DNA of 30,165 nucleotides. Origin: a virus. The translations under genes and the position numbers were made by a program. Within the stretch, counting starts at the first letter, position 1. The number at the start of each line of letters is the position of its first letter. The stretch spans positions 1 through 30,165 of IMG/VR virus record IMGVR_UViG_3300037502_001466; one strand, written 5' to 3'. Below are positions 12,091 through 29,997 of this stretch, piece by piece. The notes below the pieces were generated by a model. The model saw nothing but the letters and a program-made list of their open reading frames with translations. It was not told the DNA's origin and made no database searches.

Positions 12091-12341
12091 TGACATTGAG
12101 ACAAACATATTACCCAGTGCCGGGAGATAGCAATGTATTTGATGCGGCAATAGCCTATGTCAAAATGCTTTTTGTGGCTCGCAATGGGGTGGCTTACGAT
12201 GTAATTACTAATGTTAATAACATACTAATTACAACTAGGCAAGTGCATTACAATCCATCAACTGGGATAATCCAGTTTGATGCTAATATACCTTTCGAAG
12301 AACAAGAATCAATAAATGTTATCTATGATACGAATATTTAA
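12090..12341 (+). CDS. Small tail-tip protein, paralogue of the preceding gene's C-terminal domain
   Basis: 83 residues from the ATG in TAATG; a GTG at 12078 would add four residues. It aligns by eye with the last ~65 residues of the upstream protein: KMLFVARNGVAYDVIT against KTILGIAREGTVYNPIT, and GIIQFDANIPFEEQE against GRITFDSNIPFNPGE. The domain looks like a small beta sandwich, and the pair suggests a duplication of an adaptor domain at the tail tip next to the fibre gene. Function is unknown; fibre attachment is a guess from position. Confidence 0.6.
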   Translation: MTLRQTYYPVPGDSNVFDAAIAYVKMLFVARNGVAYDVITNVNNILITTRQVHYNPSTGIIQFDANIPFEEQESINVIYDTNI

Positions 12342-15300
12342 GCTCGTTTTATTGTTAGTAGTCAGCCAAGTAGCTTTTGGGCAAGCTCCCACTAACTACA
12401 CTAATATCAATGGTAGATACCGTTGGATTGCTGGCATGTTTGACTCTACCTTTCATATTCCAAAGGGTACAAGCCCTAGTTTAAGGACTGGCGGCTCCAC
12501 AAACCCAGGTGCTTTGTTTTATAGGACATCAGATTCAAGTCTTTATCTATATAGTGGCTCACAATGGCTTAAGCAAGCCAATGCATCTGGGTATGTTCCT
12601 TATACTGGGGCAACAGATACTTTAGACATGGGTCAGTTTGGTGTCAAGACTAAGTTTTTACAGTTTGACACTAGCTCAAGAGCCATCAGCGACCGAACTA
12701 TGCAATGGTCAAACGACAATGGAACTTTGCAGTTTGGCATGACCAATGGAGGTACAATAACGCAAAATATTGGATTGCAGCAGTTTGCAAGGGTTAAGAA
12801 TGTGCAAGGTTCACAAATTAATAAGGGTCAAGTTGTTTACTTGTCTGGTGCTTCTGGCGATCGTGCCTCAGTAAAGCTAGCTGATAATAGACAAGACTCA
12901 ACAAGCAGTAAAACATTGGGAATAGCAGTAGAGAATATTGCCATTAATGATGTCGGCTTAATTGGAACTTTTGGTACAATGTCTGGTTTCAACTTATCAG
13001 CTTATAGTGAGGGTGATGTTTTATATCTTGACTCTATCCCAGGAGGACTGACCAAAACAAAACCACAAGCTCCTTATCACTTAGTATTTATTGGAGTGGT
13101 AGAGAGAAACAATGCAGGCAATGGTTTGCTATTTACTAATCCACAAAATGGCTATGAGTTAGAGGAACTGCATAATGTTAAGATTACAAGCCCAGTAAGA
13201 AATAATGCCATCTTACTTTATGATTCGGTAGCTAGACTCTGGATTGACACCACTATTAGTCAGGCAGGGTTGGCGGTTACAAGTGTAGCCACAAATACCG
13301 GCACTGGTATTACTGGGGGAACTATCACTACCAGCGGGACTTTATCAATAGACACTACCGTAATATCAACAAGATTGTGGAGACAGAAAGGAATAGATAG
13401 TGTTATTAGTGTTATGGGAAGTCGTGTTAATGGAACTACAAACTACGTATCTAAGTTCACAGGTACTAATACAATAGGAAACTCACAAATCTTTGACAAT
13501 GGGTCAAGTGTAGGGGTGGGAACGGCTGTGCCCTCCGCTTCTTATAAGTTAGATGTAAACGGAAATGTAAATGTATCCAATGCGGTAAACTATTCCTTTG
13601 CTGGCACCAAATACGGAACAACCTATGCAACAAATGGTGCAATGGGTGTTGAAGCTCTGCAAGGTGCTGACATATCTTTAGGTACTGGAAGTGGTGCTGT
13701 TGCTACTGAAAGAGTGGTTATTAAGAATGGCGGTAATGTGGGCATCGGCATTAATTCCCCTTCGGTAAAATTAGATGTCAATGGTGCAATAAATGGGGTT
13801 AATGGTTTTACATTAAACAATGATTCTAGCAACTTATTAGCCAATATATATAGAGAAACAGATTATTCTGGCACGATGCGTATCTATAATAATGGTACTC
13901 CTAAGATATTTTTAGCCTCAAATGGTTGGAGTGCCTTTACTGGTGGGAACTTAGGGGTAGGGGTTACCAATCCAGATAGTATGTTGACTGTAACCCAAGG
14001 TGCCTACCTGCAAAGAGGGGTGCGACTATCAGGACTTCCCACTGGCATAGGCACAAAAGAACTAAGAATAGATGCCAATGGTGTAGTATATGCAAATGAC
14101 ACCTTAACAAATGACATCTCAGGATCAGGCACTACAAACTACCTACCTAAGTTTACAAGTTCAAGTGCAATAGGAAATAGTAATTTACAGACTGATGCTT
14201 CGGGAAATCTTGGTTTAGGACTTGCACCAAACTCTTGGACATATAGGGCATTTCAAATTTATGGTGCAGGATTACATGGAAATGCAGGGCAAGATAATGA
14301 TGCTGGATTAAGTGCTAATGCTTATTATAGTTCTGGGTGGAAATATTATGCTACTAATTCAGCCTCTCAATATAGACAAGTAAATGGTGAGCATACTTGG
14401 AATGTAGCACCATCAGGAAGTGCCAATAGTTCTATTAGTTTTACACAAGCTATGACTTTAACAAATGCTGGTAACTTGGGAATAGGAACAACCTCTGCAT
14501 TTAATACTAATGGTTTTGGTAGATATGTAAACATACGTGGTGCCAGTAATGCAGTTTTGTATGTGGGTAAAACAGATTTAGAGAACAATGCTTTGCAATT
14601 AGGATGGACTGCAACTGAATCTTATTTATATAATATAACTAATACACCTCTTTTATTTGGTACAAATAATGGAACCAAAATGACCCTTGATGCCTCTGGC
14701 AACTTAGGTTTAGGAGTAACACCAAGTGCTATGTCTGCTGTTAGTGGCATCGAATTAGTACAAGGGTCTCAAATAGCTTCAAGATTATCAGCAGGTGTTC
14801 CACAGCTATACATATCAAGCAATATTGCAGGCGATTCTTATGCACCTACTTATAAAGTTAATGGGTATGCTACACAATATAGAACTCAAGGTTATGATGG
14901 TACACATACTTGGTGGACAGCCCCCTCAGGCACAGCAGGTAATGCTATAACCTTTACACAAGCTATGACCTTGGATGCTTCGGGATTATTGAATGTTGGG
15001 GGAACTGGCGGCACAAAAAGATTAAATGTTTTTGGGGATAGTAGAATATTAAATGTTGCACCGACATTAGATTTTACTTTATCAACCAATACCGCATTTT
15101 CCCATAGCATAGTCGCATCAAACTATTCATCAAGTCCTATAAGTTCAAATACATTAGAATTTAGAGTTGCAAGTGGAGCAAGCACTCAAGCAACAGTAAT
15201 GACCTTAAATGGGGCTGGCAATGTAGGTATAGGTACGACTTCCCCGAACGCACCACTTTCTTTATCAGGTTCTGCTGATGTAGGAATGAGAATAAAAGCA

Positions 15301-16083
15301 GGGGCAAGTGCATTAAGTTATATTGATTTTGATGAAGCAGATAGCGGAACACCAAATGGTTCAATAGCATACAATCATGGAACAAATGCTATGACATTTG
15401 CTACGGGTGGTAGTAATGACGAAAAGATGAGAATAACAAGTGGGGGCAATGTAGGTATAGGAACGCAAAGCCCGAATTCAAATTTAGAAGTTTATACAGG
15501 AACTGGTGCAGTTTTTAGAGCTATTTATGGTGCAGATAACGTAATTGAAATAGGAAATTATAAACCTACACCAAGTGGCGCAGGATACCAGCAATTGAAT
15601 ATAATATCATCTCCAATTGTATTTTTTACTGGTACCGCTGGTGGTGGTAGTGCTACCGAAAGAATGAGAATAACTGCTGGTGGAGAAGTATATATAGGGA
15701 ATAACCCAGCCGACCAAGGAGCTTACAATCTACAAGTAAATGGTACTGGTGTCTGGGGAGCAGGTGCCTATGTAGATGGTTCGGATAGTGCAGTAAAGAA
15801 AAACATTCAACCTCTTGGAGCCTCACTTGATATTATCAAACAAATGAACCCAGTTACCTTTGAGTATCAACCTTTTTACTCTAAAGACACTACTACTCAA
15901 ACTGGCTTTATCGCCCAAGAGCTTCAGCAAGTTCTATCTAATAAAGTCTATAAAAATGGTATAGTAAAAGAGGGCGGTCAGTACTTAGGAGTGGCTTATC
16001 AGCATCTGATACCTCTTTTAGTTAAAGCCATCCAAGAGCAGCAAGCACAGATTGACCAATTAAAAGCACAACTAAATAAATAA
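12325..16083 (+). CDS. Receptor-binding tail fibre with signal peptide and C-terminal S74 intramolecular chaperone
   Basis: 1252 residues. The N-terminus looks like a signal peptide: basic MIRIFK, hydrophobic LVLLLVV, then VAFGQA as a likely cleavage site; the ATG at 12316 would add three residues in front. Residues ~25-90 form an N-terminal module (INGRYRWIAGMFDSTFH). The long middle carries nine or so GNxGxG-type repeats. The last ~100 residues are a peptidase S74 domain: SDSAVKKNI with a Ser-x4-Lys pair (residues 1153 and 1158), then 'TGFIAQELQQVLS', 'YLGVAYQHLIPLLVKAIQEQQAQI' and a C-terminal coiled coil. Such domains trimerise the fibre and then cut themselves off before that serine. It follows the tail-tip genes, as host-recognition fibres do. 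Confidence 0.85.
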   Translation: MIRIFKLVLLLVVSQVAFGQAPTNYTNINGRYRWIAGMFDSTFHIPKGTSPSLRTGGSTNPGALFYRTSDSSLYLYSGSQWLKQANASGYVPYTGATDTLDMGQFGVKTKFLQFDTSSRAISDRTMQWSNDNGTLQFGMTNGGTITQNIGLQQFARVKNVQGSQINKGQVVYLSGASGDRASVKLADNRQDSTSSKTLGIAVENIAINDVGLIGTFGTMSGFNLSAYSEGDVLYLDSIPGGLTKTKPQAPYHLVFIGVVERNNAGNGLLFTNPQNGYELEELHNVKITSPVRNNAILLYDSVARLWIDTTISQAGLAVTSVATNTGTGITGGTITTSGTLSIDTTVISTRLWRQKGIDSVISVMGSRVNGTTNYVSKFTGTNTIGNSQIFDNGSSVGVGTAVPSASYKLDVNGNVNVSNAVNYSFAGTKYGTTYATNGAMGVEALQGADISLGTGSGAVATERVVIKNGGNVGIGINSPSVKLDVNGAINGVNGFTLNNDSSNLLANIYRETDYSGTMRIYNNGTPKIFLASNGWSAFTGGNLGVGVTNPDSMLTVTQGAYLQRGVRLSGLPTGIGTKELRIDANGVVYANDTLTNDISGSGTTNYLPKFTSSSAIGNSNLQTDASGNLGLGLAPNSWTYRAFQIYGAGLHGNAGQDNDAGLSANAYYSSGWKYYATNSASQYRQVNGEHTWNVAPSGSANSSISFTQAMTLTNAGNLGIGTTSAFNTNGFGRYVNIRGASNAVLYVGKTDLENNALQLGWTATESYLYNITNTPLLFGTNNGTKMTLDASGNLGLGVTPSAMSAVSGIELVQGSQIASRLSAGVPQLYISSNIAGDSYAPTYKVNGYATQYRTQGYDGTHTWWTAPSGTAGNAITFTQAMTLDASGLLNVGGTGGTKRLNVFGDSRILNVAPTLDFTLSTNTAFSHSIVASNYSSSPISSNTLEFRVASGASTQATVMTLNGAGNVGIGTTSPNAPLSLSGSADVGMRIKAGASALSYIDFDEADSGTPNGSIAYNHGTNAMTFATGGSNDEKMRITSGGNVGIGTQSPNSNLEVYTGTGAVFRAIYGADNVIEIGNYKPTPSGAGYQQLNIISSPIVFFTGTAGGGSATERMRITAGGEVYIGNNPADQGAYNLQVNGTGVWGAGAYVDGSDSAVKKNIQPLGASLDIIKQMNPVTFEYQPFYSKDTTTQTGFIAQELQQVLSNKVYKNGIVKEGGQYLGVAYQHLIPLLVKAIQEQQAQIDQLKAQLNK
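13510..15480 (+). repeat. GNxGxG fibre repeats (degenerate, intragenic)
   Basis: Within the fibre gene the motif recurs as GVGTAVPSASYKLDVNGN, GNVGIGINSPSVKLDVNG, GNLGVGVTNPDS, GNLGLGLAPNSW, GNLGIGTTSAF, GNLGLGVTPSAM, GNVGIGTTSPNAP and GNVGIGTQSPNSN. A larger module ending 'FTQAMTL' occurs twice about 510 nt apart (near 14392-14460 and 14902-14975), each copy with a TW..APSG core. These repeats build long trimeric beta shafts and favour recombination between related fibre genes. Confidence 0.75.
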
Positions 16084-16087
16084 TAAT

Positions 16088-16480
16088 ATGAAACAATTAC
16101 TTCTGATTCTGGCTATTGCCACTTCTCTGACATCCTATTCACAAGGCACTATCTCAAGCACTATTGCTGGCACATCTTCCCCCACAGTAGATACCTTAAT
16201 GCCAGTAAAAAATGCTATCCTAATCCAGCCTATTCTGATCAATGCCTTAACCAAGGACACAGCCTACCAGTTTATCTGGAATGTGCAGAACATCAGCCGA
16301 GACACCTCACAAGGGGCAGGGGCTTATGTAAACCTCTTTGACAGAAAGGGCAGAGGCATCTACCAAACCTCAGTATATATCCCCAAAGAAATCATTAAAA
16401 ACTGGGGCACAAGCGATGAAATCATAGATAATTTTATGATTAATTATTATAAATTTGTTCCCATAAACACTAAAAAATGA
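16088..16480 (+). CDS. Small exported protein of unknown function downstream of fibre
   Basis: 130 residues. The N-terminus is a signal peptide: MKQ, hydrophobic LLLILAIATSLTS, then YSQG as a Bacteroidota-style cleavage region. The mature part is a single beta-rich domain (AYQFIWNVQNISRDTSQGAGAYVNLFDRKGRGIYQTSVYIPKE in fragments) of about 110 residues with no cysteine. It starts 4 nt after the fibre stop and its TGA overlaps the next ATG (ATGA). I do not recognise the family. Position suggests an accessory to the fibre, or a periplasmic/surface protein made late in infection. Confidence 0.7.
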   Translation: MKQLLLILAIATSLTSYSQGTISSTIAGTSSPTVDTLMPVKNAILIQPILINALTKDTAYQFIWNVQNISRDTSQGAGAYVNLFDRKGRGIYQTSVYIPKEIIKNWGTSDEIIDNFMINYYKFVPINTKK

Positions 16481-21030: not shown

Positions 21031-21063
21031 CAAATATACGAAAAAAAAATCAATCTACCAAAA
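21031..21063 (-). promoter_or_regulatory. Leftward Bacteroidota-type promoter
   Basis: On the minus strand TTTTG (21063-21059) and TATATTTG (21038-21031) are separated by 20 nt, matching the Bacteroidota -33/-7 pair (TTTG and TAnnTTTG). A run of nine A/T bases lies between them. The -33 box is inside the end of the DnaA-like gene. Confidence 0.65.
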
Positions 21064-21475
21064 CTAATTTACCTAAGTAATCCACAAATGTTATCTTCTG
21101 ATGTGATTTAACCCTACTGAGTTTCATAGAAATGCCCAAATCTGAGGCTAAGTCTATGACCTTCAAATAGTAAGGGTAAAACTTAGGGTCCTCAGTTTCT
21201 ATGTAATGTTCAATCCTTGCTCTGTAACTACTCATGGTTGAATGGTCTTTGTAGCCTACTAATGGTGCTATCTCTGTAAGTTTTATAGGGCAGTGCTGAT
21301 AAATAAAATATGATAAAGCCATTCTAATGTCTGAAAGCCTAACTTTTTCGCCATGTTTATTCTTAGCTATCTTCCAGTGGTTTCTTCTCTTTACTTCTTG
21401 TAACTGATCTAAAGTAATCCCATAATAGTTACAGACCTCATCAACTAGCTTAACTGCTTGCTCTCGTGTATTCAT
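21050..21475 (-). CDS. Protein with DnaA domain IV-like DNA-binding helix-turn-helix
   Basis: 141 residues. Residues ~45-92 read 'VRLSDIRMALSYFIYQHCPIKLTEIAPLVGYKDHSTMSSYRARIEHY', matching the DnaA domain IV layout, including the signature GxxDHST (residues 74-80) that contacts the DnaA box. The AAA+ ATPase domain of DnaA is absent: residues 1-44 are a short helical lead-in and 93-141 a basic C-terminal tail. It could bind host-like DnaA boxes to start phage replication or compete with host DnaA. It is the last gene of the main leftward operon, next to the non-coding region, and overlaps the previous stop by 4 nt. Confidence 0.7.
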   Translation of the reverse strand: MNTREQAVKLVDEVCNYYGITLDQLQEVKRRNHWKIAKNKHGEKVRLSDIRMALSYFIYQHCPIKLTEIAPLVGYKDHSTMSSYRARIEHYIETEDPKFYPYYLKVIDLASDLGISMKLSRVKSHQKITFVDYLGKLVLVD

Positions 21476-24809: not shown

Positions 24810-24817
24810 CAAAAATA
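24810..24817 (-). promoter_or_regulatory. Leftward early promoter -7 box
   Basis: On the minus strand the box reads TATTTTTG, an exact TAnnTTTG. The expected start is near 24806, giving a ~48-nt leader to the 27-residue gene. No good TTTG is visible at the -33 distance; the upstream region is very AT-rich instead. Confidence 0.5.
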
Positions 24818-24822
24818 TTTTT
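24811..24822. promoter_or_regulatory. 12-bp AT palindrome between divergent promoters, possible operator
   Basis: AAAAATATTTTT is a perfect palindrome covering the leftward -7 box and lying 19 bp from the rightward one. The regulator encoded next door has an AT-hook-like RGRKP motif and a ribbon-helix-helix-like region, both suited to AT-rich DNA. Autoregulation is an inference. Confidence 0.35.
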
Positions 24823-24840: not shown

Positions 24841-24848
24841 TATATTTG
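24841..24848 (+). promoter_or_regulatory. Rightward promoter -7 box directly before the regulator gene
   Basis: TATATTTG, an exact TAnnTTTG, lies 4 nt before the ATG at 24853. Transcription would then start at or within a few bases of the start codon, which predicts a leaderless mRNA. No TTTG is visible at the -33 distance. Confidence 0.5.
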
Positions 24849-24852
24849 TGGT

Positions 24853-25059
24853 ATGGAAAAGCAGAAACGAGGTAGGAAGCCCAAGCCTGCACATCTAAAA
24901 GTGCAAATGGTGGCGGCTTACCTAACAAAAGAACACAAAGATTTGATTATCAGTAACTATGGTAGTTTAACAAAGGCTGTTTTGCATGAAGTTATAGGCA
25001 AAATTCATGCAAATCAATACTTAGAAAAGCAAGAGGAGATACACTTAAGCCATCAGTAA
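24853..25059 (+). CDS. Small DNA-binding regulator, AT-hook-like plus ribbon-helix-helix-like
   Basis: 68 residues from the ATG just after the TATATTTG box; the frame is open upstream but that sequence is the promoter. It starts MEKQKRGRKPKPAHLK, containing the AT-hook core RGRKP, followed by a beta strand (KVQMVAAYLT) and two helices (KEHKDLIISNYGSLTKAVLHEVIGKI), the layout of Arc/MetJ-type regulators. It heads the glycan cassette and faces the divergent early operon, so it probably controls one or both. The TAA overlaps the next ATG by one base. Confidence 0.6.
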   Translation: MEKQKRGRKPKPAHLKVQMVAAYLTKEHKDLIISNYGSLTKAVLHEVIGKIHANQYLEKQEEIHLSHQ

Positions 25060-25748
25060 TGGATATTGTTATAGCCTTGGGAACTGGCAGCCGTTGGATG
25101 GACAATGAGCTTAGGTATGCTCTAAGGTCTATTGATGCCCACCTAAAAGGCCATACTGGCCGCATTCTACTAATAGGTCAAAGGCCTAAATGGATAAAGA
25201 ATGTCGATTACTATGACATCCCAGATGTGCCAGGCCGCAAGAACTTTAGCATCTTCCAAAAGATACTTACCGGCTGTGAAATGACAAACACCGAGGACTT
25301 TATATTCTGGAATGATGACCACTTTTTACTAAAAGACCTCCATGTCAACCAATTTAGATATTGGTATGATGGGCTTTGCAAGCAATGGGCTGAGAAGGCC
25401 ACTGGGTTGTATAAACGAGCCATCACAAACACAGTTAACATACCCGGCTGCAATGATCTTTATACAGATATCCATGTTCCTATTGTTTACAATGCTAAAG
25501 AGTTTGGCAAGCTGCTAGACTTAGATTGGAAGCAAGAGTATGTCATAAAATCGGCTTACACCAAAAACATGGAAGGCGGCTTTGAGTACATGGCTGACCT
25601 TAAACTGAACCAGCAATACAATATAAGCACTTGGATGGGTAAATTACATAATCGCTTATTCTTTAGTATTGGTTCTTATGCTGTCAATGGAGACTTTAAG
25701 ATAATGATGGAAAAGCGATATTCTAGAAAATCACAATACGAAAAATGA
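25059..25748 (+). CDS. Stealth-like glycosyl/sugar-phosphate transferase
   Basis: 229 residues. The N-terminal half follows the conserved regions of Stealth proteins in order: MDIVIALGTGSRW (region 1), NELRYALRSIDAHL (ELRY at 17-20), 'LLIGQRPKWI' (PKW at 43-45) and 'FIFWNDDHFLL' (NDD at 85-87, region 2). Stealth enzymes transfer hexose-1-phosphate to build surface polysaccharides. The later conserved regions are not obvious, so this may be a shortened relative or a GT-A transferase with the same core. No membrane segment. First enzyme of the cassette, coupled to the regulator and (4-nt overlap) to the GT4-like gene. Confidence 0.6.
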   Translation: MDIVIALGTGSRWMDNELRYALRSIDAHLKGHTGRILLIGQRPKWIKNVDYYDIPDVPGRKNFSIFQKILTGCEMTNTEDFIFWNDDHFLLKDLHVNQFRYWYDGLCKQWAEKATGLYKRAITNTVNIPGCNDLYTDIHVPIVYNAKEFGKLLDLDWKQEYVIKSAYTKNMEGGFEYMADLKLNQQYNISTWMGKLHNRLFFSIGSYAVNGDFKIMMEKRYSRKSQYEK

Positions 25749-26716
25749 GAATCTTTATACAAAGCCCAAACATCAATAGCCGACATGGTGGCATCAGAGT
25801 CATCAATGAATGGGCTAATAGATTAGAATATTATGGCCATACTGTTGTTTTATATAACCAAGCTGGCCCAGTTCGGTGTGATTGGATGACCATAACTTGT
25901 AAAATTGTAAATACCACTAACTTACTTGCAACCTCAGATTTATTAATAGTAACAAGCCCACATGGTGCTTCTTTGTTATGCAAAGACAAGCCAGTAAAAA
26001 AGGTAGTCTTTTTGCAAATGTTAGAGCATTTGTTTAACATAACCAACAAGGCATTTTTTGATAGTTGCTTTACCTTATACTCTACCAAATATCCCCTTAT
26101 CTCTATTAGCCAGTGGAATATCAGAATCCTACAAAACACCTACAAAAGAAAAGGGCCCATATTTTATGTAGGCAATGGGGTAAATCTGGAAGACTTTAAT
26201 ATAAGCGATAAACCTAAAGAGGGCAGAGTAGCCTTATTGGAATCTCCAGAGCCAACTAACATGGCTAAAGACACTGAAAAGATTGCAGTCCAAGTAGCTA
26301 AGAATCTAAAAGAAATGGGATGGGCAATTAAAGGATTTGGCTTAAAGAAACCAGTAGATAGAATTTATGCCGAATATCATGTAAAGCCAGACCTTGCCAC
26401 TATGAATAGGTTATATGAGGAGTCAACCATTATGATAAAGGCTACTAAATATGATGCTAGGTCCACTGCCCCTTTAGAGGCTGGCACAAAAGGTACGGTA
26501 ACGATACGATCTATAATAGAAGGGGATGATGACCTTAATGATAGCAACTCTTTTAAGACTGGCTACTCTTATGACAAGTTATTTGATGCAACAATGTTTG
26601 CCATAAATCATCCAAACCAACTAAAAGAAAAATCTGATAATATTCGCAAATACACCCAGACTTATACTTGGGATTATTGGATGGATAAAATCAATCAAAT
26701 TTTATGCAGCTTATAG
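25745..26716 (+). CDS. GT4-like glycosyltransferase (GT-B fold)
   Basis: 323 residues. 'NSRHGGIRVINEWANRLEYYGHTVVLYN' is the glycine-rich acceptor-side start typical of GT4 enzymes; 'FYVGNGVNLEDFN' is the linker before the nucleotide-sugar domain; and 'MIKATKYDARSTAPLEAGTKGT' matches the E-x-G donor-binding helix near the C-terminus, with the second usual glutamate not obvious. Such enzymes transfer sugars from nucleotide donors with retention. It overlaps the Stealth-like gene by 4 nt and the methyltransferase by 13 nt. Confidence 0.75.
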   Translation: MRIFIQSPNINSRHGGIRVINEWANRLEYYGHTVVLYNQAGPVRCDWMTITCKIVNTTNLLATSDLLIVTSPHGASLLCKDKPVKKVVFLQMLEHLFNITNKAFFDSCFTLYSTKYPLISISQWNIRILQNTYKRKGPIFYVGNGVNLEDFNISDKPKEGRVALLESPEPTNMAKDTEKIAVQVAKNLKEMGWAIKGFGLKKPVDRIYAEYHVKPDLATMNRLYEESTIMIKATKYDARSTAPLEAGTKGTVTIRSIIEGDDDLNDSNSFKTGYSYDKLFDATMFAINHPNQLKEKSDNIRKYTQTYTWDYWMDKINQILCSL

Positions 26717-27144
26717 TCGGATGCGGTCCTAATTGGCCTAAAAGAGAAAATGACATTTTTTTAGATGTAAGACCATTTGATAATGTCGATGTCGTACATG
26801 ACCTAAACATAACTCCTTGGCCTTTTAAGGATAACAGCATGACAGAGGTATCTGCTATTCATGTGGTGGAGCATCTTGATAGCTTGCTTGACTTTATGAA
26901 TGAAAGCCATAGAATACTGCAAAAAGGGGGTGCATTATACATTGAAACTCCAGAAGCAGGGGCAAACCCAGATTTGCAGTTTGCCGACCCTACTCATGTA
27001 AGATGTTACCGAAAGCATACTTTCATAAACTATTTTACCTTATCTGAGGCTTATAAGTTTGGCTACACTGACAAGCTCTGGGCTATTTTACACATAGATA
27101 CTAAAGATGGAAACCTTATTGTCCACCTAACACCTATAAAATGA
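26704..27144 (+). CDS. Class I SAM-dependent methyltransferase (short)
   Basis: 146 residues. SAM-binding motif I is LIVGCGPNW at the very N-terminus, then FLDVRPFDNVDVVHDLN, 'PFKDNSMTEVSAIHVVEHLD' (motif II with the EHL typical of methyltransferase type 11) and 'RILQKGGALYIETPEAG' (motif III). The usual N-terminal helix is missing. In a run of transferases it probably methylates a sugar or sugar-linked group. The TGA overlaps the next ATG (ATGA). Confidence 0.78.
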   Translation: MQLIVGCGPNWPKRENDIFLDVRPFDNVDVVHDLNITPWPFKDNSMTEVSAIHVVEHLDSLLDFMNESHRILQKGGALYIETPEAGANPDLQFADPTHVRCYRKHTFINYFTLSEAYKFGYTDKLWAILHIDTKDGNLIVHLTPIK

Positions 27145-27758
27145 GAATCTTAATTGTTGCCCTAGAATACTTAGAGCCAGAATGGCAAGAAACCTTAAAA
27201 TGTATTGAGGAAACTGGGTTGCCTTACGAGATAGTCAGTCGGGATGGAGTAGGCAATATGTCTAGGGCTTACAATACGATACTAATGGACCCTACTTGGA
27301 AGGCTGACTATTTGTGGTTTGTTAGTAATGTAACCTTCGAACCAGAAATGCCTTTCGAGCTTGCAATGGCTTGCGAGAGGCTTGGCTGGGCTGGCATCCA
27401 CCCGGCTATGCCTACCTCAGATCACAGATTCCAATGGCCTAATGGTAACGAGCCCAAAGAGACACCTTTTATAGAATGGACCGCACCAATGGTCAATGCG
27501 GAGGTATTTGCAGAACATCCTCTTGATGAGATGCTGCCTTATTACTACATGGACCTAGATTGGTGCCATCGGGTCAAGCCTAAAAAGGTAGGGGTGCATC
27601 ATGGTCAAGTCATCGGGCATACTTATCTAAGAAATAAGCAAGAGCATCCGATTGGACAGCTCAGAAAGCAACTAAGAAACTACTGGACTCCTATCAGCCA
27701 AAGGCACATGCTGCAAAAATGGGGTAAAGACTGGCAACAAAAACTTTGGCCTAAATAA
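27141..27758 (+). CDS. GT-A type glycosyltransferase-like protein
   Basis: 205 residues. 'MRILIVALEYLEPEWQETLKCIEETGLPYEIVSRDGVGNMSRAYNTIL' looks like a GT2-type nucleotide-sugar domain, with YLWFVSNVTFEPE in place of the usual DxD strand. 'PYYYMDLDWCHRVKPKKVGVHHGQVIGHTYLR' matches the acceptor-side end of GT2 enzymes (ED.dw..R....G......... H). A canonical DxD is replaced by VSNVTF, so activity is uncertain. Confidence 0.65.
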   Translation: MRILIVALEYLEPEWQETLKCIEETGLPYEIVSRDGVGNMSRAYNTILMDPTWKADYLWFVSNVTFEPEMPFELAMACERLGWAGIHPAMPTSDHRFQWPNGNEPKETPFIEWTAPMVNAEVFAEHPLDEMLPYYYMDLDWCHRVKPKKVGVHHGQVIGHTYLRNKQEHPIGQLRKQLRNYWTPISQRHMLQKWGKDWQQKLWPK

Positions 27759-27766
27759 AATAAACT

Positions 27767-27967
27767 ATGAAACAAACAGCAGTAGAATGGTTAGTTGAAC
27801 AACTAATACCAAAAGCAATGGTTACTTACGATGCAACAACATATAATGCAGTACAACAAGCCAAAGCACTGGAGAAAGAGCAAATATTAAAAGCATTATA
27901 TTTTGGGAAAAATATAAATGATGATATTGAAGCAGAACAATACTACAACGAAACATATAAAAAATGA
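27767..27967 (+). CDS. Small conserved protein of unknown function
   Basis: 66 residues: 'TAVEWLVEQLIPKAMVTYDATTY', 'QAKALEKEQILKALYFGK' and a tyrosine-rich end AEQYYNETY. I recognise this as a short family found repeatedly in Bacteroidota phages and genomes, without a known function. It is AT-richer than its neighbours and sits oddly inside the sugar cassette, overlapping the next gene by 4 nt. Confidence 0.7.
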   Translation: MKQTAVEWLVEQLIPKAMVTYDATTYNAVQQAKALEKEQILKALYFGKNINDDIEAEQYYNETYKK

Positions 27968-28584
27968 CATCTTTAGAACTACATGGCATTTACCATGAAC
28001 TAGCCTTTTGGCAAAGCTTTGTAAAAACAGACCGCTTTTTACAAGGCTGGGTAAAGAAAGTAAAAACACCTGAGCTGAACCAAGAGGTGGCAGACTTTAT
28101 TTTATCTGTGCCTAATGAGAAAGTATTAGATGTCGGCTCAGGAGTGTGTTCAATGCTAAATGGTTTAGTAAATGTAACTGCTTGCGACCCACTTGGAGAC
28201 CTTTACAAACTAATCTTTGATTTTGATAGGCATAAGCTAAAAGCCCCACTACCTTACCCAGCCGAGGAGCTGCCCTTTAAGAATGACTTTGATATAGTAC
28301 ACATCTCAAATGCTTTGGACCATACCCAAGAGACCAGAAAAGCCTTAGATTTGTTATTACAAGCAGTTAAGCCAGGCGGGTATCTAATTGTGCAAGGGTT
28401 TTTCAACGAGGCAACACATGAGAACTGGCAAGGCTTTCATCAGTGGGATATATCATTAGATGATCATGGCTGCATGGTTATCTTAGGCAAGAAGTCAAAA
28501 ACCATTATTGCATGGCCTCCACATAAGTTTGCAACAGTCAATTTATTAGGTCGGGATTGGTATTATTGGATAATAAAAAAGTAA
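27964..28584 (+). CDS. Class I SAM-dependent methyltransferase
   Basis: 206 residues. N-terminal helices (FWQSFVKTDRFLQGWVK), motif I 'KVLDVGSGVCSML', an acidic CDPLGDLY following it, 'LPFKNDFDIVHISNALDHTQE' and 'LLLQAVKPGGYLIVQGFFNEA' (post-motif II), then a C-terminal part unlike the first methyltransferase. Two different methyltransferases in one cassette suggest two methylation positions on the final product or on two acceptors. Confidence 0.78.
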   Translation: MTSLELHGIYHELAFWQSFVKTDRFLQGWVKKVKTPELNQEVADFILSVPNEKVLDVGSGVCSMLNGLVNVTACDPLGDLYKLIFDFDRHKLKAPLPYPAEELPFKNDFDIVHISNALDHTQETRKALDLLLQAVKPGGYLIVQGFFNEATHENWQGFHQWDISLDDHGCMVILGKKSKTIIAWPPHKFATVNLLGRDWYYWIIKK

Positions 28585-28586
28585 AC

Positions 28587-29027
28587 ATGGTAATTTGTTG
28601 TGATATCGATGGTTGCCTCACAGATGGCAAAATCTGGGTTGACCATCAAGGGAACATAATCAAGTCTTTTAATAATAAGGACATCGGAGCCATTAAAGAG
28701 CTAATCTCAATGGGCTATCAGGTACATTTGGTAACGGCATCCTCTTGGCCGGGTGCTGAGGCATACCTTAGAAGGTCAGGGGCACAATTGCACATCATAC
28801 GAAATAAAGAGACTATTCCCTTTGACTATCAAATAGCCATTGGAGACTCGGCATGGGATATTCCTATGTTATGTAAGGCAAAACACTTATTTTGTCCAGC
28901 AGATGCATCTTTAGAGGTTAAGTGCTTAGATGGAGTTCATCCGCTAATGACACCCGGAGGGCAAGGAATCATGTTAGAGTTGGTTCGCATCCTATCCAAC
29001 TGGGGTACTGATGTTGATAAGTTTTAA
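28587..29027 (+). CDS. HAD-family phosphatase, KdsC-like
   Basis: 146 residues from ATG at 28587; an upstream TTG would add ten residues over the previous gene. 'CCDIDGCLTDGKIWVDHQGN' gives the catalytic DxDG (Asp6, Asp8) in the form used by KdsC, the 3-deoxy-manno-octulosonate-8-phosphate phosphatase; then SFNNKDIGAIKELISMG, 'LVTASSWPG' (motif II), a lysine near 74, and 'IAIGDSAWDIPML' (motif IV, Asp87/Asp91). No cap domain, as in KdsC. It should dephosphorylate a sugar phosphate, fitting the end of a glycan pathway. The residue pattern does not identify the exact substrate. Confidence 0.7.
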   Translation: MVICCDIDGCLTDGKIWVDHQGNIIKSFNNKDIGAIKELISMGYQVHLVTASSWPGAEAYLRRSGAQLHIIRNKETIPFDYQIAIGDSAWDIPMLCKAKHLFCPADASLEVKCLDGVHPLMTPGGQGIMLELVRILSNWGTDVDKF

Positions 29028-29035
29028 CACTTATA

Positions 29036-29067
29036 TTTTGTTAAGTGCCAAATATTTCGTATATTAG
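29036..29067 (+). promoter_or_regulatory. Candidate promoter for the late block
   Basis: TTTTG (29036-29040), 19 nt, then TATATTAG (29060-29067), which matches TAnnTTTG at all but one defined position. The expected start is near 29071. A 6-bp inverted repeat (CACTTA/TAAGTG, 29028-29047) overlaps the -33 side and could be an operator. Confidence 0.45.
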
Positions 29068-29096
29068 GGGGTGAATAAAGGGTAAAAAATCAACGA

Positions 29097-29128
29097 GCCT
29101 TCAATCCTTCGGGGTTGAGGGCTTTTTT
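29097..29128 (+). terminator. Strong intrinsic terminator
   Basis: An 11-bp stem (GCCTTCAATCC with GGGTTGAGGGC, two G-U pairs) capped by TTCG and followed by six T residues. It ends the glycan cassette. It also lies between the candidate promoter at 29036 and the first packaging-operon gene, with only 5 nt left before that ATG, so it may act as an attenuator for the late block. Confidence 0.85.
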
Positions 29129-29133
29129 ACACT

Positions 29134-29274: not shown

Positions 29275-29633
29275 TGTCATCACTCACCACCATAGACTGG
29301 GAACTTGTAGGCGAATACCTTATGGCAGGTTGCTCTGGGGTAGAAGTAGCCGCTCAGTTGGGAATCCACGAAAACACTCTGTATCAACGATGTAAGTCGG
29401 ATTTAGGAGTCGATTTTGTGGCATTTAAGCAAGAAAAGCAGGCATCAGGGGAAAGCCTTTTAAGGAAGGTCCAATTTGATGCAGCAATCAAAGATAAAGA
29501 CCGAGCCATGCTTATCTGGTTAGGCAAGCAAAGGTTAGGTCAGAAAGAAAAAGGCGAGCAAGATATTAAGGTTGATGGCGGCATTAACATTATATTTGAG
29601 AAAGCCGATCAAAACCATAGCACAAATGAATGA
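29274..29633 (+). CDS. Terminase small subunit
   Basis: 119 residues. An N-terminal helix-turn-helix ('VGEYLMAGCSGVEVAAQLGIHENTLYQRCKSDLG') is followed by an oligomerisation helix region (EKQASGESLLRKVQFDAAI) and 'RAMLIWLGKQRLGQKEK', the usual end of the TerS core. It recognises phage DNA for packaging and feeds it to the large subunit. The large subunit begins about 330 nt later, after an inserted endonuclease gene. Confidence 0.82.
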   Translation: MSSLTTIDWELVGEYLMAGCSGVEVAAQLGIHENTLYQRCKSDLGVDFVAFKQEKQASGESLLRKVQFDAAIKDKDRAMLIWLGKQRLGQKEKGEQDIKVDGGINIIFEKADQNHSTNE

Positions 29634-29997
29634 AGTATTTATTCAGATTGATGAATATCCAAATTATTCAATTTCTAATTTTGGGAATGTTAAGAATAAT
29701 AAAACCAACAAACTGATAAAGAAACATTTAAATAATTATGGGTATGAACTTGTTACTTTATGTGGCAGATATACAAAATCTGTTCACAGATTAGTGGCAA
29801 TTCATTTTATACCTAATCCAGCCAATAAGGAAACGGTAAACCATAAAAACGGCATAAAAACAGATAATTGTATGGCCAATTTAGAATGGGCAACAAGGTC
29901 TGAAAATATGCAGCATTGTTTTGATACTGGATTGCAAGTTAGTAACTTAATCAAGTATCGTGAAAACCGTAAGAGTAAAATATACGGAGGTCTTTGA
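29626..29997 (+). CDS. HNH homing endonuclease with NUMOD4 domain
   Basis: 123 residues. The NUMOD4 DNA-binding motif 'IDEYPNYSISNFGNV' (residues 8-22) is followed by the HNH region 'VHRLVAIHFIPNP', 'VNHKNGIKTDNCMANLEWATRSEN' (His73, Asn81, Asn85) and a C-terminal 'FDTGL' tail. It is a free-standing homing endonuclease inserted between the two terminase genes. It overlaps TerS by 8 nt and the large terminase by 38 nt in another frame. It is visibly more AT-rich than its neighbours (long A/T runs near 29690-29740), which fits recent arrival. Confidence 0.87.
   Translation: MNEVFIQIDEYPNYSISNFGNVKNNKTNKLIKKHLNNYGYELVTLCGRYTKSVHRLVAIHFIPNPANKETVNHKNGIKTDNCMANLEWATRSENMQHCFDTGLQVSNLIKYRENRKSKIYGGL

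Follow-up and report, generated by a model that had tools for sequence, protein, structure and literature searches.

The window, i.e., the whole stretch of DNA analysed here, comprises all 30,165 bp of the IMG/VR virus record IMGVR_UViG_3300037502_001466 and contains a cassette of genes for glycan-modifying enzymes at positions 24853-29027, which we compared with related loci that are all located on metagenomic contigs. All cassette genes are on the plus strand. The first open reading frame (ORF; 24853-25059) codes for a basic protein of 68 amino acids (aa), a probable regulator whose DNA binding is predicted from its sequence, and is followed by the genes for a Stealth-like transferase (25059-25748; 229 aa), a GT-B glycosyltransferase of the GT4 type (25745-26716; 323 aa), the S-adenosylmethionine (SAM)-dependent methyltransferase MT1 (26704-27144; 146 aa), a glycosyltransferase of the GT-A fold (27141-27758; 205 aa), a 66-aa protein of no assigned function (27767-27967), a second SAM-dependent methyltransferase, MT2 (27964-28584; 206 aa), and a KdsC-like phosphatase of the HAD family (28587-29027, or starting from a TTG codon at 28557; 146 aa). 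As already stated in a preliminary description of this DNA, the genes overlap or abut: neighbouring ORFs either overlap by 1-13 bp or stand 2-8 bp apart. None of the enzymes contains a membrane segment according to hydropathy analysis, and the cassette encodes no pathway for nucleotide-sugar synthesis or for a lipid carrier.

The enzyme set recurs in nearly a hundred relatives, where it is located beside the DNA-packaging genes. We collected 31 loci by scanning with the Stealth protein, 75 with the GT-A protein, and the best 80 of 97 with MT2, the last set being mapped gene by gene only at those loci common to the Stealth and GT-A scans. The scanned loci share the gene order Stealth-GT4-(MT1)-GTA-MT2-KdsC, located 5' of the terminase and portal genes and, in the 75 viral contigs selected by the GT-A protein, nearly always directly upstream of the terminase. 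All 63 of these contigs with sufficient room contain the genes for MT2 and the KdsC-like phosphatase behind that for the GT-A protein, and all 44 with room on the other side contain the Stealth and GT4 genes before it, while MT1 is present in 29 of these 44. The same linkage appeared when contigs were sampled by the large terminase subunit (TerL) only: among the matches listed, MT2 and the KdsC-like gene are present in all 21 contigs that have a TerL of at least 79% identity and extend far enough upstream. The core therefore consists of five genes coding for the Stealth-like, GT4, GT-A, MT2 and KdsC-like proteins (in this order), whereas MT1 is lineage-specific and the 66-aa ORF an optional insert with homologues in 6 of the 31 close loci and a weak match to phrog_10862. 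Of the seven genes originally proposed, all classes are thus present, but only five form the constant part. Two rearranged loci retain most or all of the core: L098 (about 45% identity) has all five genes with the GT4 gene shifted to a position behind KdsC, and L168 (TerL 47% identical) contains the GT4, MT1, GT-A, KdsC and MT2 genes in altered order and without Stealth. Because the genes are retained despite such rearrangements, we regard the cassette as a functional unit. It is under purifying selection, with ratios of non-synonymous to synonymous substitution rates of 0.03-0.17 (mostly 0.04-0.15) relative to the window, similar to those of the portal gene and mostly below those of TerS. Families, folds and linkage together confirm the earlier assignment as a coherent phage-borne operon for glycan modification, and its gene set was found in dozens of independent contigs.

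The first core enzyme matched phrog_7999 (E=1.5e-19), whereas its match to the Stealth_CR2 family (E=1.8e-4) scored 22.1 bits and stayed under the curated cut-off of 39.4 bits. Of 25 phage members, 24 matched Stealth_CR2 (with E values down to 9.6e-11), and a profile made from the alignment of these 25 members matched GNPTAB (E=1.9e-10) and CpsY (4.8e-6) in the PDB. An AlphaFold2 model of the protein was obtained with a predicted local distance difference test score (pLDDT) of 95 and a predicted template-modelling score (pTM) of 0.91, and the top 11 Foldseek matches were all CpsY or GNPTAB (E values of 4e-10 to 4e-7), followed by GT-A enzymes of the GT6 and GT8 types. The N-D-D metal/sugar motif is invariant in the phage alignment, with N85 and D87 corresponding to N322 and D324 of CpsY. 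The first conserved region (CR1) of the Stealth family reads IDVVYT[FW] or similar (PMC10668966) and is matched in part by MDIVIALG in the window protein and by MDYVYICR in distant members. In CR3, Arg419 is essential for CpsY, and the exchange R419K abolishes its activity (PMC10668966); by inspection of the alignment, this position is occupied by Lys164 in the clade of the window and by Arg in the clade of loci L125-L141. The tetrapeptide C[LI]ND of CR4 is missing and replaced by SIGS or ST/SED, while the subsequent FPxxSxYE block is retained. Because of the absent CR4 tetrapeptide and the Lys164 in place of Arg, we assign the protein to a compact, divergent Stealth-like branch rather than to the canonical members. 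It shares CR2, the GT-A core, the N-D-D motif and the FPxxSxYE block with the GlcNAc (N-acetylglucosamine)-1-phosphotransferase GNPTAB, CpsY of Mycobacterium tuberculosis and capsule hexose-1-phosphate transferases, but differs from Stealth proteins by its size of 229 aa with the spacers removed, the absence of CLND and the partial CR1. The enzyme most likely transfers a sugar-1-phosphate, which is not certain because Lys164 replaces the Arg419 needed by CpsY. The family phrog_7999, listed as "unknown function", thereby gains a defined fold and a likely chemistry.

Among cultured phages, we found one distant match each for the Stealth-like and KdsC-like proteins and none for the GT4 and GT-A proteins. 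The Stealth-like relative is gp215 of Microbacterium phage Cece (L107; 24% identity), which has no neighbouring sugar genes. Two other loci (L121:2816-4204 and L122) encode a GT2 domain fused to a Stealth-like domain in a single phage protein. A literature search found no paper on phage Stealth proteins, although many subscription papers were not covered by it.

At the other end of the cassette, the phosphatase matched TIGR01670, the KdsC subfamily, with E=5e-14 and 52.5 bits. Because this score is under the curated cut-off of 106.95, we call the protein KdsC-like rather than KdsC. Its profile aligned end-to-end with the KdsC structure 1j8d (E=5e-17), and the capless protein of 146 aa contains the HAD catalytic residues D6, D8, T50, K74, D87 and D91 (DxD, T, K, GDxxxD), which are invariant in 12 relatives. 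It thus shares both sequence profile and active-site residues with KdsC-type (C0 HAD) phosphatases, but no partners of the KdsA/KdsB or NeuB/NeuA types are seen in the cassette, so the enzyme must act on a phosphosugar made either by the host or by the cassette itself. A KdsC-like phosphatase beside glycosyltransferases is likewise found in the sugar cluster of Synechococcus phage SynMITS9220M01, which also contains a kinase, nucleotidyltransferases and epimerases, whereas the window cassette has no genes for nucleotide-sugar synthesis.

The remaining core enzymes were assigned with the help of relatives and predicted folds. The GT4 protein of the window gave nothing reliable when searched singly against the family libraries, and Glyco_transf_4 was matched by 10 of 14 relatives. 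Its profile matched the group 1 glycosyltransferases 7ec1/7ec7 in the PDB with E=6e-4 and over the C-terminal half only, and this match therefore indicates a GT-B enzyme and no more; these entries probably represent the Ser-glycosylating SdgB/SdgA of Staphylococcus aureus. Searches of Pfam, PHROGs and NCBIfam assigned the GT-A protein to no family, and its profile had no sequence match in the PDB. Its AlphaFold2 model (pLDDT 82, pTM 0.83) gave 75 PDB matches with E values of at most 0.001, and the best 50 of these 75 are almost all GT-A enzymes, among them GalNAc-T2, TarP/TarS, RmlT and the archaeal-virus protein STIV A197, at E values of 1e-6 to 1e-5, and also AvpGT. Structure searches, which the preliminary description had suggested as a check, thus returned Stealth proteins for the first enzyme and the GT-A fold for this one. 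At the expected place of the DXD motif, as assigned from the sequence and not by superposition, the protein contains [ST]N, with N63 invariant even in L168. MT1 matched Methyltransf_11 (E=2.4e-7), had no match in the PDB by profile, and is not present in many relatives having the core. MT2 matched Methyltransf_23 (E=1.4e-8) and, by profile, the PDB entry 1vl5 (1e-7). The idea of an unusual methylated sugar was derived from the presence of methyltransferases and a KdsC-type phosphatase, but only one methyltransferase belongs to the core, and synthesis of an unusual sugar by the phage is not demonstrated because there is no dedicated sugar-synthesis pathway.

The cassette is transcribed rightward from a divergent promoter region common to early-type genes (NinG and others), which are transcribed leftward from about 24.8 kb. 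Between the divergent genes lies the palindrome AAAAATATTTTT (24811-24822), which is probably an operator, judging from its position. It is unchanged in all 14 of the upstream regions that we aligned and occurs as a single copy in the window, even if one mismatch is allowed. It is followed on the plus strand by a promoter box of the Bacteroidota type, TATATTTG (24841-24848), and the TATNTTTG box 4 nt 5' of the regulator ATG is kept in all 14 aligned sequences. Because the box pattern by itself is not rare in the window, the evidence for the promoter consists in its conservation; the TTTG-N-TANNTTTG promoter pattern did not occur above chance in the window, and a scan for Sigma-70 promoters showed no excess versus shuffled sequences. 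The regulator starts with an AT-hook-like KRGRKPK motif, possibly belongs to the ribbon-helix-helix type, had no family match in Pfam, PHROGs or NCBIfam, and is encoded upstream of the Stealth gene in nearly all relatives. The conserved box and the invariant palindrome bear out the prediction that the cassette has its own promoter, and they suggest that this promoter is autoregulated and nearly leaderless.

Behind the cassette, an intrinsic-terminator hairpin with a U-run is present at 29095-29129 on the plus strand, with a folding energy of -20.8 kcal/mol (z -6.1) and a stem whose pairing survives substitutions. About 40 nt 5' of this hairpin and after the KdsC gene, there is a promoter-like box, GTATATTAG (29058-29066, plus strand), which is conserved across the clade together with the leader behind it, and its position suggests a promoter role. 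In the sister clade L085-L093, the promoter-like box is retained without a strong hairpin. Because this conserved box stands before the hairpin, the terminator is not simply the end of the cassette. The earlier view of one regulated unit that ends at a strong terminator therefore needs a correction: the unit is separate from the packaging genes and the hairpin is real, but it lies within a promoter module of the packaging genes. Transcription of the latter probably starts from a separate promoter, and the hairpin may both terminate cassette transcripts and act as an attenuator or leader hairpin in the packaging operon. A near-invariant leader, GGGGGTGAATAAAGGGTAAAAAATCAACGAGCCT, connects the GTATATTAG box with the hairpin and includes GTG AAT AAA GGG TAA, a possible four-codon ORF. 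The complete module (29058-29129) was found in 64 loci, with some contigs counted twice, and is a candidate for a packaging-operon attenuator or a small RNA of about 65 nt. A leftward promoter-like sequence with close likeness to the packaging-gene box, TTTGGTAGATTGATTTTTTTTTCGTATATTTG, is present on the minus strand at 21031-21088, and both possibly belong to a shared phage promoter class.

In more distant phages, the place beside the terminase is occupied by other sets of transferases. Recognisable glycosyltransferase or methyltransferase genes are located just upstream in 13 of 28 contigs with TerL 38-57% identical, among the matches listed. A recurring alternative set in phages with TerL about 40% identical reads GT4 - GT2 - GT_PLOD - Methyltransf_24. 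GT_PLOD (PF25342), the domain of collagen-lysine glycosyltransferases and thus of protein glycosylation, was matched with E=2e-16, and the set containing it is present at L186:3638-7494 and also in L176, L181, L182, L194 and L198. The closer relative L110 (TerL 79%) contains Stealth together with a TOD1/MUCI70-type glycosyltransferase and a methyltransferase-GT2 fusion replacing the other four core genes, and further Stealth relatives adjoin GT47, GT32-type enzymes, GT2 fusions or GT4-CAP59 fusions. In L131:7466-8687, as well as in L132 and L133, a Stealth homologue is encoded directly 3' of a collagen-like, BclA_C-like appendage protein, and these two proteins are a candidate enzyme-substrate pair. 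An action of the PLOD-type enzymes on collagen-like fibres of their own phages was not supported, as the Collagen family had no match in the PLOD-carrying relatives or in the window record. Because the core set is under selection and is swapped for other transferase sets in related phages, glycan decoration appears to be a standing function of this freshwater group.

We assign a probability of about 0.5 to the interpretation that the cassette is a cytoplasmic operon of soluble enzymes building a short methylated and probably phosphodiester-linked glycan, most likely on a structural protein of the phage. The acceptor would be a virion protein in the host cytoplasm, and the Stealth-like enzyme would use a nucleotide sugar of the host as donor to transfer a sugar-1-phosphate to a hydroxyl group, either of the protein or of a first sugar. 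Further sugars would then be attached by the GT4 and GT-A enzymes and methylated by MT2, together with MT1 where present, with the sugars and the order of all steps being presumed; the KdsC-like phosphatase would dephosphorylate a sugar intermediate. A cytoplasmic acceptor is favoured because the enzymes are soluble and the record lacks a flippase, a tyrosine integrase and a thymidylate-synthase-type enzyme. Virion proteins would be the simplest acceptor of this kind, by analogy with mycobacteriophages and with the protein-type glycosyltransferases in related slots. Mycobacteriophages glycosylate capsid and tail-tube proteins by their own glycosyltransferases, according to the work cited in PMC12619734 and PMC12363180. 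The systems of Che8 (gp110) and Corndog (gp38) likewise consist of phage-encoded soluble glycosyltransferase(s) with a proposed virion-protein acceptor, whereas the window cassette contains several enzymes including Stealth, methyltransferase and phosphatase, has a fixed place beside the terminase, and is known here from its genes alone. Several points weigh against decoration of a virion protein. The acceptor is only deduced, and the PLOD and collagen-like evidence stems from distant phages and not from that of the window. Moreover, the Stealth-like enzyme has Lys164 where CpsY needs Arg419, and the GT-A protein appears to lack DXD at the expected place. Finally, the receptor-binding tail fibre with its S74 chaperone (12316-16083) is mosaic across phages sharing the cassette, with only the first ~87 residues conserved at 62-89% identity in relatives. 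Because of this mosaicism, the variable part of the fibre is not a specific target, and the conserved proteins of the capsid or tail are more plausible acceptors. The N-terminus of the fibre contains a hydrophobic segment resembling a signal peptide, as do the small proteins encoded at 16088 and 16477.

Modification of a host surface polysaccharide or host glycoprotein glycan during infection, which would hide the receptor and block superinfection or the loss of progeny to debris, is possible, if somewhat unlikely. It represents the classical role of phage glycosyltransferases, and lipopolysaccharide or capsule loci typically contain enzymes of the GT4, KdsC and Stealth types. The cassette's own promoter beside early genes, the regulator at its head and the lack of co-variation with the fibre would also fit this function, but the enzymes are all soluble with no membrane protein, and no priming or polymerising enzyme is seen. 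Neither the GtrA flippase (PF04138) nor a tyrosine integrase (PF00589; other integrase types were outside the search) was found in the record, with positive controls in both cases, so the operon differs from phage gtr/serotype-conversion cassettes, which are also operons with phage glycosyltransferases, by lacking the flippase, a membrane glycosyltransferase and an integrase. In addition, it adjoins the packaging genes, and related slots carry protein-type glycosyltransferases. That the cassette yields a small, soluble product (a glycoconjugate or a derivative of a nucleotide, e.g., a counter-defence metabolite) is quite unlikely: soluble enzymes, a phosphatase and methyltransferases could well use small molecules, and the cassette is kept whatever the fibre, but three different glycosyl or sugar-phosphate transferases in series point to an acceptor-bound oligosaccharide, and no defence-related association was found.

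Hypermodification of the phage DNA with sugars against restriction has precedent, as the glycosyltransferases of T-even phages, among others, modify DNA in this way (Pyle et al. 2024, cited in PMC12619734), and several relatives carry DNA methylase inserts in the cassette region. We regard it as very improbable here, since the thymidylate-synthase/dCMP (deoxycytidine monophosphate)-hydroxymethylase type (PF00303) was not found in the record with positive controls; a search for Tet/JBP was also empty, but without a positive control. To our knowledge, there is no precedent for Stealth or KdsC enzymes acting on DNA. The chance that a host polysaccharide locus was joined by misassembly, or captured recently without function, is practically negligible. 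The enzyme classes are indeed common in bacterial surface loci, but this explanation is refuted by the synteny with TerL and portal genes in dozens of contigs, the purifying selection, and a scan with the GT-A profile that covered the contigs of 84,980 bacterial and archaeal genomes and found no relative; a scan with a TerL profile gave no relative either. Among the three targets originally envisaged, DNA is therefore unlikely, a gtr-type change of the host surface is weakened, and decoration of the virion is favoured by inference. A more far-reaching version of virion decoration, which we offer tentatively and consider unlikely in its full extent, would be an exchangeable, phage-wide slot beside the terminase for phosphodiester-linked, O-methylated glycans on virion proteins, made via the compact viral Stealth branch and thus representing phosphoglycosylation. 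While phage glycosyltransferases are usually annotated one at a time with their targets guessed, a fixed set of five enzymes is present here in a genome of 31 kb, and if its glycan is carried by the virion, this would show that the particles of small environmental phages are coated with sugars that are methylated and possibly phosphate-linked.

The genome belongs to a siphovirus and contains genes for portal, head morphogenesis, protease, HK97-type capsid, tape measure, S74-chaperone fibre and endolysin. The record starts with a truncated portal gene and finishes with a truncated TerL gene; because about 1 kb is missing (the remainder of TerL and the portal start), the full genome should be of about 31 kb, within the range of 30-34 kb of the relatives and slightly smaller than the ~32 kb assumed before. 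Searches for Rfam families and tRNAs found none. The closest named portal proteins are those of Cellulophaga and Flavobacterium phages (25-30% identity), and because of these relatives and the type of the promoter, the window probably derives from a freshwater phage with a host from the Bacteroidota.

Additional genes were observed at variable sites within or around the cassette. DNA methylases, one type of which contains a ParB-like fusion, recur within or just behind it (L001:3602-4267, L024:9456-10118, L072:3103-3741, L084:8605-9228, L086:8618-9253, L088:9231-9887, L018:10639-12132 and L071:3400-4530), and these positions may be hot spots for DNA-protection genes. PAPS-reductase-like inserts are present in the cassettes of separate lineages (L069:1843-2553, L093:1912-2643 and L168:4224-5036). 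Finally, the window contains a gene for an HNH endonuclease (29572-29997) between TerS and TerL, which is missing there in most relatives, and a homologue with 35% identity is located between TerL and portal in locus L011. This gene looks like a homing endonuclease insertion.

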